From: Microbispora corallina
Lineage (GTDB): Bacteria; Actinomycetota; Actinomycetes; Streptosporangiales; Streptosporangiaceae
Assembly (NCBI RefSeq): GCF_016863035.1
Contig: NZ_BOOC01000003.1
Span: 620,001 to 684,000 of the forward strand
Direction of reading: 5' to 3'
DNA: 64,000 nucleotides
Part shown: positions 2,034 through 32,421 of the stretch, piece by piece
Layout of the letters: each line of letters starts with the position of its first letter
Numbering within the stretch: the stretch's first letter is position 1
Translations under genes and position numbers: made by a program
Notes under the pieces: model-generated
Seen by the model: only the letters and a program-made list of their open reading frames with translations
Database searches by the model: none
What the model was told of the DNA's origin: nothing

Positions 2034-5000
2034 GTGAGGTTGCACCGGCTGCGGCTGACCGCCTTCGGGTCCTTCCCCGGCACCGAGGAGGTGGACTTCG
2101 ACGCGCTCGGCGAGGCGGGCCTGTTCCTCATCCACGGCCCGACCGGCGCCGGCAAGACCACCGTCCTCGACGCCGTCTGCTACGCCCTGTACGGCCAGGT
2201 GCCGGGGCAGCGCGACAGCGCCCGGTCGCTGCGGTGCGACCACGCGCCCCCCGATCGGGGGCCGTCCGTGGTCCTGGAGGTGACGATCCGCGAGCGGCGC
2301 TTCCGCGTCACCCGTTCGCCCGCCTGGATGCGCCCCAAGCTGAGGGGCGAGGGCCTGGTCGAGGAGAAGGCCAAGGTCCTGCTGGAGGAGTTCACCGGCG
2401 CCTGGACGGCCCGCAGCACGCGCAGCGACGAGGCCGGGCACCTGATCGGCGACCTCATGGGCATGAACGCCGACCAGTTCTGCCAGGTGGCGATGCTGCC
2501 GCAGGGCGAGTTCGCCCGTTTCCTGCGGGCCGACGGCGACGACAGGCGGAAGCTGCTGGAGAAGCTGTTCTCCGTCAAGATCTTCACGGATGTGGAGAAG
2601 TGGCTCGCCGAGCACCGCACCCAGACCGGGCGTGAGCGCCAGGAGCTCGGCCAGCGCGTCGAGTCCGTCCTCGACCGGATGCGCGGCGCGGCCGGGGCCG
2701 GCCTGCCGCTGCCCGAGGACGCCGCCGACCCCGCCGCCTGGGCGGACGCCGTGCTCGGCCTCGCGCAGGGAGAGCTCGCCCGCGCCGCCGAGGCGTCCGC
2801 GGCCAGCCAGACGGCGCTGCTCGTCGCCCGCGCACGCCTCGCCGACGGTCAGGCGCTGGCCGACCGGCGCAGACGCCATGCCGCCGCCCTCACCCGGCGC
2901 CAGGAGCTCGACGCCGCCGCCGACGAACGCGCCGACCTGGAGACGATCCTCGACGAGGCGATCCGGGCCGATCGCGTGCTCCCGCTGATCCGCCAGGCCG
3001 AGCAGCGCGCCGAGGCCGCGGCCAAGGCGAGGAGCCTCGCCGCCGACGCAGCGCAGCGTGCCCTCCCCGCCGGCCACCGCCCGGGCCCCGAGGGTGCGGG
3101 CGTCGCGAGTGCGGGATCCGAACGTTACGGGTACGGCGTCGCCGGGCCTGACGTCGCCTCCTCGGCGAGCGGATGGCCGTACGAGGGCGGGCTGGTGGGA
3201 GGACACGGGCCGGGTATCGCCGGCGCCGGCATGGACGGCGCGGACGGTTCGGGGGATTCGGGCGCCCCCGCTGCCTCCGGCGGCCGCGCGGACCTCGGCG
3301 GCCAGGACGGCCAGGGCGACGTGGGACGGCCGGAGGGCGAACGACTGGCCGGGCTGCTGGCGGAGCTGGAGCGGCAGCGGCGCGACGAGATCGGCCGGGT
3401 GCGGCAGGTCCTCCCCGAGGAGTCCCGGCTGCGGGAGATGCGCGAGGAGCTCGACGCCTCGGCGACCGCGCTGGCCGGCCTGGTCGAGCAGGAGGCGCGC
3501 CTGGCCGAGCGCCTCGCCGTCCTGCCGGAGGAGCGCCGCCGGGCCGAGGAACGGCTGGAGGAGGCCCGGCTCGCCGCGGCGGCCGTCCCCGGCCTGACGT
3601 CCGCGCGCGACGCCGCCGTCCGCCTGCGCGAGGCCGCCCAGCGGGCGGCGGCCCTTCAGGCGGAGCTGGAACGGCTGGCCGAGGCGGAGGGGGCGGCGCT
3701 CGCGGCCCAGGCCGAGCTGCCCGCCCTGCTGGCCGCGGCCGAGGAGCGGGTGAGAGGCGCGCGGGACAGCGCGGCCCGGATCCCCGCGCTGGAGGCGGCG
3801 TGCCGGTCCGCGGCAGAGCGGCTGGCGGCCGCCGAGCTGCGCGACGCGCTGACAACCGAGCTGGAGGAGGCGGAGCAGGCCCGCCGAACGGCCGTCGACG
3901 TGGCCCAGGAGCGTCGCGACGGGCTCCAGGCGGTCCGGCAGAGCCGGATCGAGGGCATGGCGGCCGAGCTTGCGGCGCGGCTCGCGGAGGGCCGGCCCTG
4001 CGCCGTCTGCGGCTCGGTCGACCACCCGGCCCCGGCCGAGCCCGCCGAGAGCGCCCCCACGGCCGACGACGAGCACGCCGCCGAGGAGGCGTTCGAGGCC
4101 GCCCAGCGAGCCCGCGAGGAGGCGGAGACGAGGGTCGCCGGACTGTCGTCGCGGCTCGACGGCGCCGCCGGTCAGGCCGGCGGGCTGGCGCAGGAGGCCG
4201 CTGCCACGGCGCTCGCCGAGGCCGGCGCGGAGCTGGACGCCCTGCGCGCGGCCGCGGACGAGGAGCCGGCGCTCGCCGCGGACGCGGACCGCCTGGCGGC
4301 CGACCTGGAGGCGGCACGCGAACGGGCCACGGAGACCGCCGGCCGGATCGCCGAGACCCGCGCCCATGTCGAGGCCCTGGACGCGGAGCGGGCCCGCCTC
4401 GCCGCGGCCCTGCGGGACGTCGATCCCGAAGCGGGCGCCCTCGTCGACGGCCCGGACCCCGACCGTATCGAGGCAGCGCCCGAGCACATGGACGACGAGA
4501 GTGGCTGGGAGGGGGCGCTGGTCGCGCGGGCGGAGCGGCGCCTCGCGGAGGCCCGGGCCCTGGCGGCGCGGGAGGAGTCGCTGGTCGCCGAGCGTGGCCG
4601 GCTGGCGGCCGAGATGGAGGAGCTGACGTCCCGCGGCGGCCGGGTCGCGCTCGACCTGGCCGAGGTGCGCGCCCGCCGGGAGCGTCTCGTGGCCGACGAG
4701 CGACGGCTGGCCGCGATCGTGGACGAGGCGCGCGGCCGGGACGCCACGCTGGCCGCCCGGCTCGACCGGCTGCTCGACGAGGTCGCGCTCATCCGGGAGG
4801 CCGCCGACGCCGCCAGGGCCGCCGCCGTCGCCGCCGCCGAGAGCGCGACGGCCCGCGAACAGGCCGAGCGAGCCGCGGCCGAGGCCGGTTTCGCCGGCGT
4901 GGAGCACGCCGCCGCGGCCGTCCGGATGCGGGAGGATCGCGAGGCCATGGCCCAGCGGCTGCGGGACCTCGACGCCGAGCGGGCCACGGTCGAGAGCGTG

Positions 5001-20127: not shown

Positions 20128-21273
20128 ATGCTCAACGACGAGCACGTGGAGCTGCGCAAGACGGTCGAGGAGTTCGCCCGGTCCGAAGTGGCCCCCGTCA
20201 TCGGGGACTACTACGAGAGGTGCGAGTTCCCGTACGAGATCGTGCGGAAGATGGGCGCGATGGGGCTGTTCGGCCTGCCGGTCCCGGAGGAGTACGGCGG
20301 GATGGGCGGCGACTACTTCGCGCTGTGCCTGGCCCTGGAGGAGCTGGCGAGGGTCGACTCCTCGGTGGCCATCACGCTGGAGGCGGCGGTCTCGCTGGGC
20401 GAGATGCCGATCCTGCGGTTCGGCAGCGAGGAGCAGAGGAGCAGGTGGCTGCCCGGGATGGCGGCGGGCGAGGTGCTCGGCGCCTTCGGCCTCACCGAGC
20501 CCGGCGGCGGGTCCGACGTCCCCGGCGGCATGCGGACGACGGCCGTCCTGGACGGCGGCGAGTGGGTGGTCAACGGGTCCAAGGCGTTCATCACGAACTC
20601 GGGGACCGACATCACCGGCGTCGTGGCGGTCGCCGCGATCACGGGCCGCCGCGAGGACCGGCCGGAGATCTCGACCATCCTGGTCCCGTCCGGGACGCCG
20701 GGGTTCACCGTGTCGAAGAAGTACTCCAAGGTGGGCTGGTCGGCCTCCGACACCCGTGAGCTGTCGTTCGCCGACTGCCGGGTGCCGGCGGAGAACCTGC
20801 TGGGCGAGCGCGGGCGCGGCTACGCCCAGTTCCTCCAGACCCTCGACGAGGGCCGCGTCGCCATCGCCGCCCTGTCGGTCGGGCTGGCGCAGGGGTGCGT
20901 GGACGAGTCGGTGCGGTACGCGGGGGAGCGCCGGGCCTTCGGGCAGGAGATCGGCCGCTACCAGGCCATCCAGTTCAAGATCGCCGACATGGAGGCCCGG
21001 GTCCACACCGCCCGGCTGGCCTACTACCACGCCGCCGAGCGGATGCTGGCGGGGCTGCCGTTCAAGAAGGAGGCGGCGATCGCCAAGCTCGTCGCCTCGA
21101 ACGCGGCGATGGACAACGCCCGCGACGCCACCCAGATATTCGGCGGATACGGCTTCATGAACGAGTTCCCCGTGGGCCGTTTCTATCGCGACGCCAAAAT
21201 CCTGGAAATCGGCGAGGGCACGAGCGAGGTGCAGCGGATGCTCATCGCCCGCGAACTCGGCCTCGGCGCCTGA
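20128..21273 (+). CDS. Acyl-CoA dehydrogenase (AcdH type, branched/short chain)
   Basis: 381 residues with the usual three domains: an N-terminal helical domain, the middle beta domain (GAFGLTEPGGGSDV, KAFITNSG), and the C-terminal helical domain (QIFGGYGFMNEFPVGRFYRDAKI). The catalytic Glu is at the standard place in the EIGEGTSEVQ motif. Classical isovaleryl-CoA dehydrogenases have Gly/Ala there and a Glu elsewhere, so this is more like the broad-range AcdH found next to the same genes in streptomycetes. It supplies 3-methylcrotonyl-CoA from isovaleryl-CoA to the carboxylase upstream. The last gene of the operon; a strong hairpin follows. Confidence 0.92.
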   Translation: MLNDEHVELRKTVEEFARSEVAPVIGDYYERCEFPYEIVRKMGAMGLFGLPVPEEYGGMGGDYFALCLALEELARVDSSVAITLEAAVSLGEMPILRFGSEEQRSRWLPGMAAGEVLGAFGLTEPGGGSDVPGGMRTTAVLDGGEWVVNGSKAFITNSGTDITGVVAVAAITGRREDRPEISTILVPSGTPGFTVSKKYSKVGWSASDTRELSFADCRVPAENLLGERGRGYAQFLQTLDEGRVAIAALSVGLAQGCVDESVRYAGERRAFGQEIGRYQAIQFKIADMEARVHTARLAYYHAAERMLAGLPFKKEAAIAKLVASNAAMDNARDATQIFGGYGFMNEFPVGRFYRDAKILEIGEGTSEVQRMLIARELGLGA

Positions 21274-21309
21274 CGAATTCGGAAACCTGCGGGGAATGGC
21301 TCCGCGCGC

Positions 21310-21352
21310 GGACGGGGCTCCGGCGAACGGCCGGCTCGCCGGAGCCCCGTCC
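21310..21352. terminator. Strong bidirectional hairpin terminator
   Basis: A perfect 17-bp stem (21310-21326 with 21336-21352) with a 9-nt loop lies between the convergent acyl-CoA dehydrogenase and the Cys-rich small gene. It probably serves both. Confidence 0.75.
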
Positions 21353-21378
21353 CGCGGCCCGCGCCGTGGAGGCGCCGC

Positions 21379-21519
21379 TCAGCTCTGCAGCGACGCCTGC
21401 CGGGCCTGGCAGTTCTCGCACCGGCAGTTCTCGCACTGGCAGCCGTCGCGCTGGCAGTTCTTGCACTGACAGCCCTCGCATGGGCAGCCGGACTTCCCGC
21501 CGGCCTGCACTCCAGCCAT
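21379..21519 (-). CDS. 46-residue Cys-rich metallothionein-like protein
   Basis: The start at 21519 is supported by GGGAGGA seven bases upstream, one of the best ribosome sites in the window. The 46-residue product has 10 Cys and no other strong feature, in two identical arrays CxCx2CxCx2C (Cys 12, 14, 17, 19, 22 and 27, 29, 32, 34, 37), each about 11 residues long. It has a short Gly/Lys N-terminal arm and a Gln/Ser tail, no signal peptide and no His. CxC/CxxC repeats at this density are metallothionein-like and suggest a cluster of Zn2+, Cu+ or Cd2+ in the cytoplasm. It does not resemble mycobacterial MymT or cyanobacterial SmtA in spacing. A strong terminator follows, and a possible 49-residue gene ends 14 bp upstream. 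Confidence 0.82.
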   Translation of the reverse strand: MAGVQAGGKSGCPCEGCQCKNCQRDGCQCENCRCENCQARQASLQS

Positions 21520-21533
21520 GATGATTCCTCCCT

Positions 21534-21683
21534 TTAAACATTGCCTGCCCTGAACGGGCCATGTCTTTTCTTCTCGGGGAGATGTGAATCGGTGGCATCG
21601 TTGGCCGCCATTTCAAGCGGTATCTTGATTTCCTGTCCCGTCGAGGGGCAAACGGCCGCTTCGTTCATCTGATGGCGTGTCAT
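21534..21683 (-). CDS. Possible 49-residue protein upstream of the metallothionein-like gene
   Basis: A short open frame, MTRHQMNEAAVCPSTGQEI at its start, ending GPFRAGNV 14 bp before the Cys-rich gene. It is fairly hydrophilic, with one Cys and His residues near both ends. AGGAG is present but lies almost against the ATG at 21683, and too far from the inner ATG at 21668, so the start is doubtful. Codon choice has less G/C at third positions than neighbouring genes. It may be a real first gene of a mini-operon or only leader sequence for the metallothionein-like gene. No family is recognised. Confidence 0.4.
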   Translation of the reverse strand: MTRHQMNEAAVCPSTGQEIKIPLEMAANDATDSHLPEKKRHGPFRAGNV

Positions 21684-21698
21684 TCTCCTGAGACGGGA

Positions 21699-21728
21699 GG
21701 AGGCCTCCCCCTGGCGGGGAAGGCCTCC
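21699..21728 (-). terminator. Hairpin after the aromatic-rich secreted protein gene
   Basis: A 12-bp stem with one bulged A (21699-21710 with 21716-21728) and loop CTGGC, 20 bp beyond the stop of the gene at 21749. It is also only 16 bp before the possible 49-residue gene, so it may instead act as a leader structure for the downstream small genes. Confidence 0.55.
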
Positions 21729-21748
21729 CGTGGTGCCCGGCGCGCGGA

Positions 21749-22075
21749 TCAGCGCCGGTACCAGTGCGGCAGGCAGTGCCAGCCGGTCCTCGTCTGGTAG
21801 TAGTACCGGCCGTGGATCCACCGGACGTGGCGGTACTGGGGGAACCGGTGGACCGGCGACAGGCCGTAGACGGGCCGGTGGAACGAGGCCGACCGCCAGC
21901 CGTACAGGTAGGCGTCCGGGCCGTAGTGCGACGGCCAGTAGACGTGGCCGGGGTGGTGGGCGACAGCGGCGCCGGAGGCCGTCGCCGCCTGGGCGGGTGG
22001 GGAGGCGATCGCCATCCAGCCCGCCGCCGCGCAGGCGATCAGGGCAGGGGCGATCCCTTTTGAGAGCTTCACCAT
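21749..22075 (-). CDS. Small secreted aromatic- and His-rich protein
   Basis: 108 residues. AAGGGAG precedes the ATG at 22075, and a signal peptide follows (MVKLSKGIAPALIACAAAGW, cleavage near AQAA). The mature part of about 75 residues is unusually rich in Tyr, Trp, His, Arg and Pro, with short stretches such as HHPGHVYWPSHYGPD, YGWRSASFHRPVYG, RHVRWIHGRYYY and HCLPHWYRR. There is a single Cys. No domain is recognised. The composition could suit metal binding, polysaccharide binding or surface adhesion; none is shown. Secreted short proteins of this type occur in Streptosporangiaceae as hypotheticals. Confidence 0.72.
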   Translation of the reverse strand: MVKLSKGIAPALIACAAAGWMAIASPPAQAATASGAAVAHHPGHVYWPSHYGPDAYLYGWRSASFHRPVYGLSPVHRFPQYRHVRWIHGRYYYQTRTGWHCLPHWYRR

Positions 22076-22277
22076 GTCTCCCTTCTGTGCGCATCGTCGC
22101 GCCCGGCGACAGCCGGAGCGGGCCGATCTCGGGTCTCGGCCTGCGATGCTCACGCAGAGTAATTCCGCGCATACGGAAGGTTGACACGTTCGAGCAACTG
22201 ATCATTCATTTCTTTACCCAGGCCAGGCCCCTTCCTGACGTCCGGGCGGCGCGCGGGGACGCCGGGGACGGCGTCGG
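22076..22277 (-). other. Intergenic region with a doubtful 19-codon frame
   Basis: 202 bp between the response regulator stop and the aromatic-rich secreted protein start. It is less GC-rich than its surroundings and should hold the secreted gene's promoter. A 19-codon frame (MNDQLLERVNLPYARNYSA, 22209 to 22150) begins after a purine-rich stretch without a clear ribosome site. It could be a leader peptide, but nothing else supports it. Confidence 0.3.
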
Positions 22278-22949
22278 TCAGGCGATCGTGTAGAGAAGCT
22301 CCGGACGGCCGGGACCGCCGTACCGGGGGACGCGGCGGGCGACGCCGGCCTCCACCAGGTGCTCCAGGTAGCGCCTGGCGGTGACCCGCGAGACGCCGAC
22401 GGCCGCGGCCGCCGCCTGGGCCGACACGCCTCCCGGCGCCCGGCGCAGCGCGCCCGCCACCGCCTCCAGTGTGTCGGCCGTCATGCCCTTCGGCAGCGGC
22501 GAGCGCGCGGTGCCCCGCAGCGCGGACAGCGCCCTGTCCACCTCGCCCTGGCCGCTGACCTCGCCGGATCCGCTGATGGACGACCGGAACGCCGCGTACC
22601 GCTCCAGCTTCTCGCTGAGCGCCGCGAACGTGAACGGCTTCAGCAGGTACTGCACGACGCCCACGGACACGGCCGACCGCACCACGGCCAGGTCGCGGGC
22701 GGAGGTGACGGCGATGACGTCGGACGGCACGCCCGCGGCCCGCAGCGCGCGGCACACGTCGAGGCCGTGCATGTCGGGCAGGTAGAGGTCGAGCAGCACC
22801 AGGTCGGCCGCGCTCCGGCGCAGGAACCGCAGGGCCTCGCCCCCCGACCGGGCCACCCCGGCCACCCGGAAGCCGCGCACCCGTTCGACGTACAGCCGGT
22901 TCGCCTCGGCCGTGAGCTCCTCGTCCTCCACGATCAGCACCGAGATCAC
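22278..22949 (-). CDS. Response regulator, CitB/DcuR (DctR) type
   Basis: 223 residues from GTG 22949. The receiver domain has the acidic pocket VEDEE, phospho-acceptor Asp in LVLLDLYLPD, the VTSA switch and the KPF lysine. A linker leads to a C-terminal HTH (VSAQAAAAAVGVSRVTARRYLEHLVEAG) of the CitB family type. Its start overlaps the kinase stop (GTGA), so the pair is translated together. With the kinase and the divergent dctA it should sense extracellular C4-dicarboxylates or citrate and switch on uptake. Confidence 0.9.
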   Translation of the reverse strand: MISVLIVEDEELTAEANRLYVERVRGFRVAGVARSGGEALRFLRRSAADLVLLDLYLPDMHGLDVCRALRAAGVPSDVIAVTSARDLAVVRSAVSVGVVQYLLKPFTFAALSEKLERYAAFRSSISGSGEVSGQGEVDRALSALRGTARSPLPKGMTADTLEAVAGALRRAPGGVSAQAAAAAVGVSRVTARRYLEHLVEAGVARRVPRYGGPGRPELLYTIA

Positions 22950-30879: not shown

Positions 30880-32421
30880 ATGCCTCGATCGCACTACGAC
30901 GCCGTCATCGCCGGAGCCGGGCACAACGGCCTGGTCGCCGCCGCGTACCTCGCGCGGGCCGGGCGGCGCGTGCTCGTCCTCGAACGCCTCGGCCACGTCG
31001 GCGGCCTCGCCGTCTCCGCCCAGGCCTTCCCCGGCGTGGACGCCCGGCTGTCGCGCTACTCCTACCTGGTCAGCCTGCTGCCGACGAAGATCGTCAAGGA
31101 GCTCGGGCTCGGCCTGGACCTGCGCCGCCGGAGGTTCTCGTCGTACACGCCGGTCGGCGGCACCGGCCTGCTGGTCGACACGGCGGACGAGGGACGCACC
31201 GCGGCCTCCTTCGAGGCCGTGACCGGCGGCCGCGCCGACCTGGACGCCTGGACGCGGTTCTACGGCATGGTGGGCGAGGTGGCCCGCCGGGTCGCGCCGA
31301 CCCTGCTCGAACCCCTGCGCGACCGTACGGCCCTGCGCGCGGTCGTGGGGGACGACGAGGCCTGGCGCGACCTGTTCGAGCGGCCGGTGGGCGAGACGGT
31401 GGCCGGGCGCTTCGCCGACGACACCGTCCGCGGGGTGGTGCTCACCGACGCGCTGATCGGCACGTTCGCCGACCCGTCGGCGGACCTGCTGGCCAACCGG
31501 TGCTTCCTCTACCACGTGGTCGGCGACGGCACGGGCGACTGGAACGTCCCCGTCGGCGGCATGGGCGCGGTCACCGCGGAGCTCGCCGAGGCCGCCCGCC
31601 GCGGCGGCGCCGAGATCCGCACCGACGCCGAGGTCCTCGGGATCGACCCCGGCACGGGGGAGGTGGCCTTCCGGGACGACGGCGGCGCCGAGCACACGGT
31701 GACCGCGGGCCGGATCTTGGCCAACGTGCCGCCCGCCGTCCTCGCCCGCCTGCTCGGCGAGGAGCCGGAGATCCCCGAGGGCGCCCAGCTGAAGATCAAC
31801 ATGGTGCTGTCCCGGCTGCCGCGCCTGAAGGACCTCGAGGTCGACCCGGCCGAGGCGTTCAGCGGGACGTTCCACATCAACGAGGGCCGCGACCAGCTCG
31901 CGGCTGCGTACGCGCAGGCCGCGGCCGGGCGGATCCCGGACCTGCCGCCGGCCGAGGTGTACTGCCACTCGCTCACCGACCCCTCGATCCTCGGGCCGTC
32001 GCTGCGCGAGGCGGGCGCCCACACGATGACGCTGTTCGGGCTGCACATGCCGGCCCGGCTCTTCCGCGACCCGCGGACCGGCGCGGAGGCCGCACGGGAG
32101 GCCGTGCGCCGCACGCTCGCGTCGGTCGACGCCGTGCTGGCCGAGCCGATCGAGGACTGCCTGCTGCGCGCCCCCTCCGGTGAGCCGTGCCTGGAGGCGA
32201 AGACGCCCGTCGACCTGGAGAGGGAGGCCGGGCTGCCCGGCGGCCACATCTTCCACCGCGACCTGTCCTGGCCGTACGCCGAGCCGGGCGACCACGGGCC
32301 CTGGGGCGTGGAGACGCCGTACGAGCGGCTCCTGCTGTGCGGCGCGGGGGCCAGGCGCGGCGGCGGCGTCAGCGGCATCCCCGGGCACAACGCGGCCATG
32401 GCGGTGCTGAACCCGTCCTGA
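30880..32421 (+). CDS. Phytoene-dehydrogenase-like FAD oxidoreductase (CrtI/BSU type)
   Basis: 513 residues. The Rossmann dinucleotide motif GAGHNGLVAAAYLARAGR is at the N-terminus, and a second FAD contact is at the C-terminus (LLCGAGARRGGGVSGIPGHN). The HVGGLAVS segment and general plan match the actinobacterial branch of CrtI-like flavoproteins, which are not linked to carotenoid synthesis genes here. No phytoene synthase or other isoprenoid enzyme is near, so the substrate is unknown. It should be a cytoplasmic or peripheral flavoenzyme. Confidence 0.82.
   Translation: MPRSHYDAVIAGAGHNGLVAAAYLARAGRRVLVLERLGHVGGLAVSAQAFPGVDARLSRYSYLVSLLPTKIVKELGLGLDLRRRRFSSYTPVGGTGLLVDTADEGRTAASFEAVTGGRADLDAWTRFYGMVGEVARRVAPTLLEPLRDRTALRAVVGDDEAWRDLFERPVGETVAGRFADDTVRGVVLTDALIGTFADPSADLLANRCFLYHVVGDGTGDWNVPVGGMGAVTAELAEAARRGGAEIRTDAEVLGIDPGTGEVAFRDDGGAEHTVTAGRILANVPPAVLARLLGEEPEIPEGAQLKINMVLSRLPRLKDLEVDPAEAFSGTFHINEGRDQLAAAYAQAAAGRIPDLPPAEVYCHSLTDPSILGPSLREAGAHTMTLFGLHMPARLFRDPRTGAEAAREAVRRTLASVDAVLAEPIEDCLLRAPSGEPCLEAKTPVDLEREAGLPGGHIFHRDLSWPYAEPGDHGPWGVETPYERLLLCGAGARRGGGVSGIPGHNAAMAVLNPS

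Follow-up and report, generated by a model that had tools for sequence, protein, structure and literature searches.

The ten-cysteine reading frame and its leader

The window, that is the whole 64-kb stretch of DNA analysed here, contains on its minus strand an ORF at 21379-21519 (stop codon included) that translates to MAGVQAGGKSGCPCEGCQCKNCQRDGCQCENCRCENCQARQASLQS, a protein of 46 residues. Ten Cys are found in it, at positions 12, 14, 17, 19, 22, 27, 29, 32, 34 and 37 (gaps 2,3,2,3,5,2,3,2,3). They make up 22% of the protein and are packed into 26 residues, and His, Trp, Tyr and Phe are all absent. The array CxCx2CxCx2C is present twice. A preliminary description had reported this ten-Cys frame with its two arrays, lacking His and a signal peptide, and the ORF is real: neither a His nor a hydrophobic stretch fit for a signal peptide was found in the 46-residue sequence. 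The distance of "five residues" given there between the arrays holds for the step from Cys22 to Cys27, although the residues that lie between them number four (QRDG). Base composition along the codons is coding-like (GC1/2/3 = 0.59/0.59/0.91), and GC3 is 0.87 when the repeat part of the ORF is left out. The product is small and Cys-rich and falls within the broad criterion for metallothioneins, which also includes few or no aromatic residues.

A Shine-Dalgarno site, AAAGGGAGG (21527-21535, minus strand), stands 7 nt before the ATG. Its strength, taken as the duplex energy with the 16S tail, is -11.9 kcal/mol. Of 8000 sampled ATGs, 2.0% do as well or better, as do 13% of 425 predicted longer genes when each is taken at its best in-frame start. 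The ribosome site is strong, in line with the preliminary description. The leader (21520-21689, minus strand) is AT-richer, with a G+C content of 0.54 versus 0.73 for the window. Within it, a second ORF of 49 residues (21534-21683, minus strand, GC3 0.60) shares bases of its stop codon with the Shine-Dalgarno site of the Cys ORF, and could be a leader peptide or mere leader sequence. It was dropped as an operon partner, given its low GC3, the lack of any family match and the absence of a relative in 250 family genomes. No sigma-70-type promoter was detected by a consensus scan of 21260-22300, a consensus that excludes actinobacterial promoter types, and an Rfam scan of 21000-22400 gave no score near the gathering threshold.

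Downstream hairpin and genomic neighbourhood

An inverted-repeat search detected a perfect 17-bp inverted repeat with a 9-nt loop (21310-21352), which starts 26 nt beyond the stop of the Cys ORF. This is the terminator of the preliminary description. The hairpin lacks a following T run in both directions and is not among the predictions of a terminator scan. It separates the Cys ORF from an acyl-CoA dehydrogenase gene that runs towards it and ends at 21273, and because of this position it may serve either gene, as a candidate two-way terminator.

All 15 genus genomes have the acyl-CoA dehydrogenase gene, with 92-95% identity in the other 14, and the sequence downstream of it differs between them. 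In the 0.8-1.5 kb after this gene, an ORF with repeated CxCx2C was found in none of the 14 other genus genomes; three of them have at that spot an ORF in which Cys makes up 10% or more, without CxCx2C repetition. The region 21274-22300 of the window and the same spot in the 14 relatives are variable, which suggests frequent gene turnover. Six neighbours were scanned: a biotin-dependent methylcrotonyl-CoA carboxylase subunit, the acyl-CoA dehydrogenase, a response regulator, an sCache histidine kinase, an SDF symporter (dicarboxylate) and an acetyltransferase. The first two belong to branched-chain acyl-CoA catabolism, and the regulator and kinase form a two-component pair. No metal-related gene was found among these six.

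Upstream of the Cys ORF, a small, secreted, His- and Tyr-rich protein is encoded at 21752-22075 (minus strand), without a Pfam or NCBIfam match. It occurs in one other of the 15 genus genomes and, by a pattern-based scan, in a Microbispora oryzae record. A link between the two ORFs was considered and rejected, since genome G178 harbors the secreted protein (67% identical) and lacks the Cys ORF.

A 15-bp repeat behind the cysteine arrays

Tandem Repeats Finder assigns 21406-21480 to a tandem array with a 15-bp unit, 5.0 copies and 75% matches, and a repeat search confirmed a start-to-start spacing of 15. Read on the minus strand, the units are CPCEG, CQCKN, CQRDG, CQCEN and CRCEN, followed by an eroded CQARQ. 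The two Cys arrays, described earlier as identical, are present, but they are the reading of a single C-x-C-x-x repeat in which unit three carries Arg in place of the second Cys. The duplication is therefore a property of the DNA repeat. Changes between units show no third-position bias, and Cys codons are hit by 2 of the 11 unit-to-unit changes, a sparing that is not significant (P = 0.10).

The lack of a clear sign of selection between units favors the main rival of a translated gene, an untranslated minisatellite. According to this explanation, slippage would have enlarged the 15-bp array in the variable intergenic region that separates the convergent genes, and both the Cys frame and the ribosome-like leader would be coincidental. 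We regard it as a substantial possibility, clearly under an even chance. It is also favored by the recurrence of period-15 arrays in the genus. Such arrays were found at 20/20 genus loci obtained with the NF038108 profile, a biased set as this profile selects period five, and a count in 1.55 Mb of three genus genomes gave 22 period-15 rows with 3.8 or more copies, of which two overlap and six lie outside predicted genes. Among these six, the window array is the sole one to combine a ribosome site, the GC3 signature (GC3 of at least 0.85 and GC3-GC2 of at least 0.25) and Cys. Another of the six offers a start codon whose ribosome site is just as strong (-12.1), with no Cys. Arrays of this period were seen across Microbispora genomes, for example at loci L030, L031, L034 and L046, and in the genome of the window itself at L003 and L040.

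Gene or coincidence

Several comparisons speak for a gene. The 750-kb contig has 610 intergenic ORF frames of 30-90 residues, of which 21 have so strong a ribosome site; nine of the 610 add the GC3 signature, a figure that includes the Cys ORF as well as some fragments of genes missed by the simple gene caller. Tandem repeats have a period divisible by 3 in 213/232 cases (92%) in predicted genes versus 39/66 outside them, and the window array has such a period. Among 20000 simulated non-coding 15-bp arrays, 246 gave at least eight Cys in a spanning ORF, 25 of these had a ribosome site of such strength too, and six also showed the GC3 signature. An untranslated minisatellite would thus need some luck, about 0.3-1.2% per genome at perhaps ten non-coding arrays per genome. 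By extrapolation, however, one or a few such cases are expected over 345 order genomes. The conjunction of features at the window ORF exceeds chance; for the Cys spacing alone this is less clear.

The sharpest counter-example comes from the same family, in genome G059. Its locus L007 holds a 15-bp array, with CDRCVCDRCVWDRCVCDRCLCDLC on the plus strand, that encodes nine Cys with gaps 3,2,3,5,2,3,2,3, identical to those from Cys14 to Cys37 of the window ORF; the position that lacks its Cys is the same as well. The nearest ATG to the array has a weak ribosome site (-5.7). On the minus strand the array encodes RQRSHTQRSHTQRSH, the tail of a protein with a CrcB match over its residues 116-223, and the Cys reading is antisense to this tail. 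The same Cys spacing can therefore be the by-product of a repeat used in another frame, a point in favor of the untranslated minisatellite, and the spacing alone proves nothing. The CrcB-type protein itself is encoded at 2586-3374 (minus strand) of locus L164 (contig C78 of G059), with a C-terminal tail made from the 15-bp repeat (RQRSHTQRSHTQRSH), and its gene adjoins one for DUF190 and another of the CrcB type.

A small translated Cys-rich protein, as proposed in the preliminary description, is plausible from the ribosome site, the GC3 and the compact frame. Judged from the ratios given above, and not from a computed posterior, translation of the window ORF seems somewhat more probable than its absence, and the ORF is probably, not certainly, a gene.

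Homologue and profile searches

Homologues with the two-array Cys spacing were searched for in four overlapping sets, a genus set (15 genomes, E<=1), a family sample (250 genomes, E<=0.01), an order set (345 genomes, E<=0.001) and a phylum sample (396 genomes, E<=0.001). In each of them the window was the only accepted match, which in the genus set means its own genome, 1/15. No paralogue of the ORF was found in that genome. Weak matches, its own genome included, were obtained in 12/15 genus genomes (E<=1), 6/250 genomes of the family sample and 2/345 of the order. The 26 weak-match loci read (L003-L028; 3 of the 25 genus match rows fall outside them) are other short repeats or unrelated frames. 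Three of them were rejected individually. The second match of the order, in G062 (L006, E 5.8e-4), has a single Cys within the matched stretch; L003, in the genome of the window (E 0.0046), is a GCQARG repeat; and L008 of G105 has five Cys in the CxCx2CxCx2C spacing, but on 2.4 copies of the 15-bp unit and in a reading frame that comes directly after a stop codon and for which a start codon was not found.

The sensitivity of the search was controlled with synthetic copies of the ORF at an approximate database size. Copies with 40% identity and all Cys kept were found in 31/40 cases at E<=1e-3, while copies in which nothing but Cys was kept were found in 6/40 cases at E<=1e-3 and in 28/40 at E<=1, which was the threshold of the genus search. 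Given these rates, distant relatives that share Cys alone are unlikely in the genus, as far as sequence searches can tell, and could exist outside it. A BLAST control with low-complexity filter and composition correction missed 40/40 copies even at 49% identity. The lack of any match in plasmids and phages by tblastn is accordingly a weak negative. Pattern scans of genome contigs and viral contigs, which require an exact 8-residue match and may share the weakness of filtered BLAST, returned 274 and 37 stretches, none of which was upheld by tblastn.

The preliminary description had suggested that the protein may represent an undescribed bacterial metallothionein family, to be recognised by conserved synteny and Cys spacing in relatives. 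For the genomes searched the result goes against this idea: one member is known, and no homologue with conserved spacing appeared in the genus, family, order or phylum sets. The observation of the ORF was correct and unusual; its reading as a family is not supported by these comparisons. The failure to find homologues in the genomes searched is a further point in favor of the untranslated minisatellite.

Profile searches gave a similar picture. Pfam, PHROGs and PDB sequences yielded nothing over cut-off, and the metallothionein profile PF02069 did not match the ORF even at E<=10. The same profile found 0/15 genus genomes above cut-off, and the Synechococcus elongatus control was positive. The single NCBIfam match, and the sole match in any library, is NF038108 (CefA, a RiPP peptide with Cys every fifth residue), at E 0.41. 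This match favors a third explanation, in which the ORF is translated and its product is no metal store: a RiPP-like modified peptide precursor, a thiol/redox peptide or a functionless by-product. The score is, however, 10.6 bits against a cut-off of 30, and no peptide-modifying enzyme was found among the six scanned neighbours. We consider this third explanation improbable.

Proposed function

The locus combines an ORF, a ribosome site, coding-like GC3, a repeat and no accepted homologue in the searched genomes. Our preferred explanation, tentative and held at somewhat short of an even chance, is a translated, lineage-specific Cys-repeat protein that would bind thiophilic metals like a metallothionein. 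If the protein is made, metal-thiolate clustering would be its likeliest activity, because it has ten thiols in 26 residues and almost no residues able to form a fold. From general metallothionein chemistry, ten Cys without His should hold some three divalent ions or a larger number of Cu(I) ions. The ORF would be transcribed and translated, and the body of its product would have grown by expansion of the 15-bp unit read as C-x-C-x-x, which would give it a young origin. Without metal the 46-residue protein would have no fold; with Cu(I), Zn(II) or Cd(II) it would form Cys-thiolate clusters around the ions, acting in the cytosol as a metallothionein-like metal buffer whose capacity could be adjusted through gain or loss of repeat units.

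A more specific history may also be proposed, although we hold it to be rather unlikely. The ORF may be a metallothionein near its birth: a 15-bp minisatellite at a variable intergenic position of one Microbispora lineage would have come under a ribosome site and lengthened in frame into a (C-x-C-x-x)n metal-thiolate protein, with no descent from SmtA, Pseudomonas MTs or MymT. If the ORF is translated and its product binds metal, it would offer a testable case of a bacterial metal-binding protein born from a short DNA repeat and not from an older gene, as well as thiolate clusters designed around a five-residue unit. Otherwise, the locus is a warning that Cys arrays in GC-rich actinobacteria can stem from 15-bp minisatellites.

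Comparison with known systems

The metallothioneins of PF02069, such as SmtA of Synechococcus and the Pseudomonas MTs, resemble the window ORF in being small, Cys-rich and, by sequence, intracellular. A CxCxxCxC stretch, present in the window ORF, also occurs close to the N-terminus of SmtA. Unlike this group, the window ORF lacks a profile match, His and a folded part of the zinc-finger kind. It falls outside PF02069, and descent from any library family is not apparent in its sequence. According to PMC7387436, the folds of SmtA and the Pseudomonas MT are related, and His takes part in their metal clusters too, that of the Pseudomonas MT being Zn3Cys9His. In the genus, an 84-residue ORF with nine Cys that resembles PF02069 was seen outside the window, on contig C3 of G000 (169893-170147, plus strand). 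It scores 19.2-19.9 bits against the cut-off of 33, and G000 is the sole genus genome of the 15 that matches this profile at E<=0.01. Also outside the window, the same contig has at 31230-31421 (minus strand) a poly-Cys frame, in which 40 Cys occur in runs and which is probably an unused frame of a GC-rich simple repeat.

MymT of Mycobacterium tuberculosis shares with the window ORF an actinobacterial origin, a small size and a high content of Cys. The spacing of its Cys probably differs from that of the window ORF. The role outlined for MymT is copper detoxification (PMC7387436). The CefA peptide of NF038108 has, like the window ORF, a Cys at every fifth residue, whereas the window ORF adds a second Cys per unit. 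Searches of the open-licence literature gave no title or abstract opening on a bacterial metallothionein made of C-x-C-x-x units.

A parallel in overall plan comes from eukaryotes. OdiMT2 of Oikopleura and the fungal MTs consist of repeated Cys modules, the number of which varies in evolution, as outlined in PMC8283569 and PMC12508003. The plan of repeated Cys modules is shared with the window ORF and implies no descent: the eukaryotic repeat unit is a whole domain with 7-12 Cys, while that of the window ORF is five residues long.
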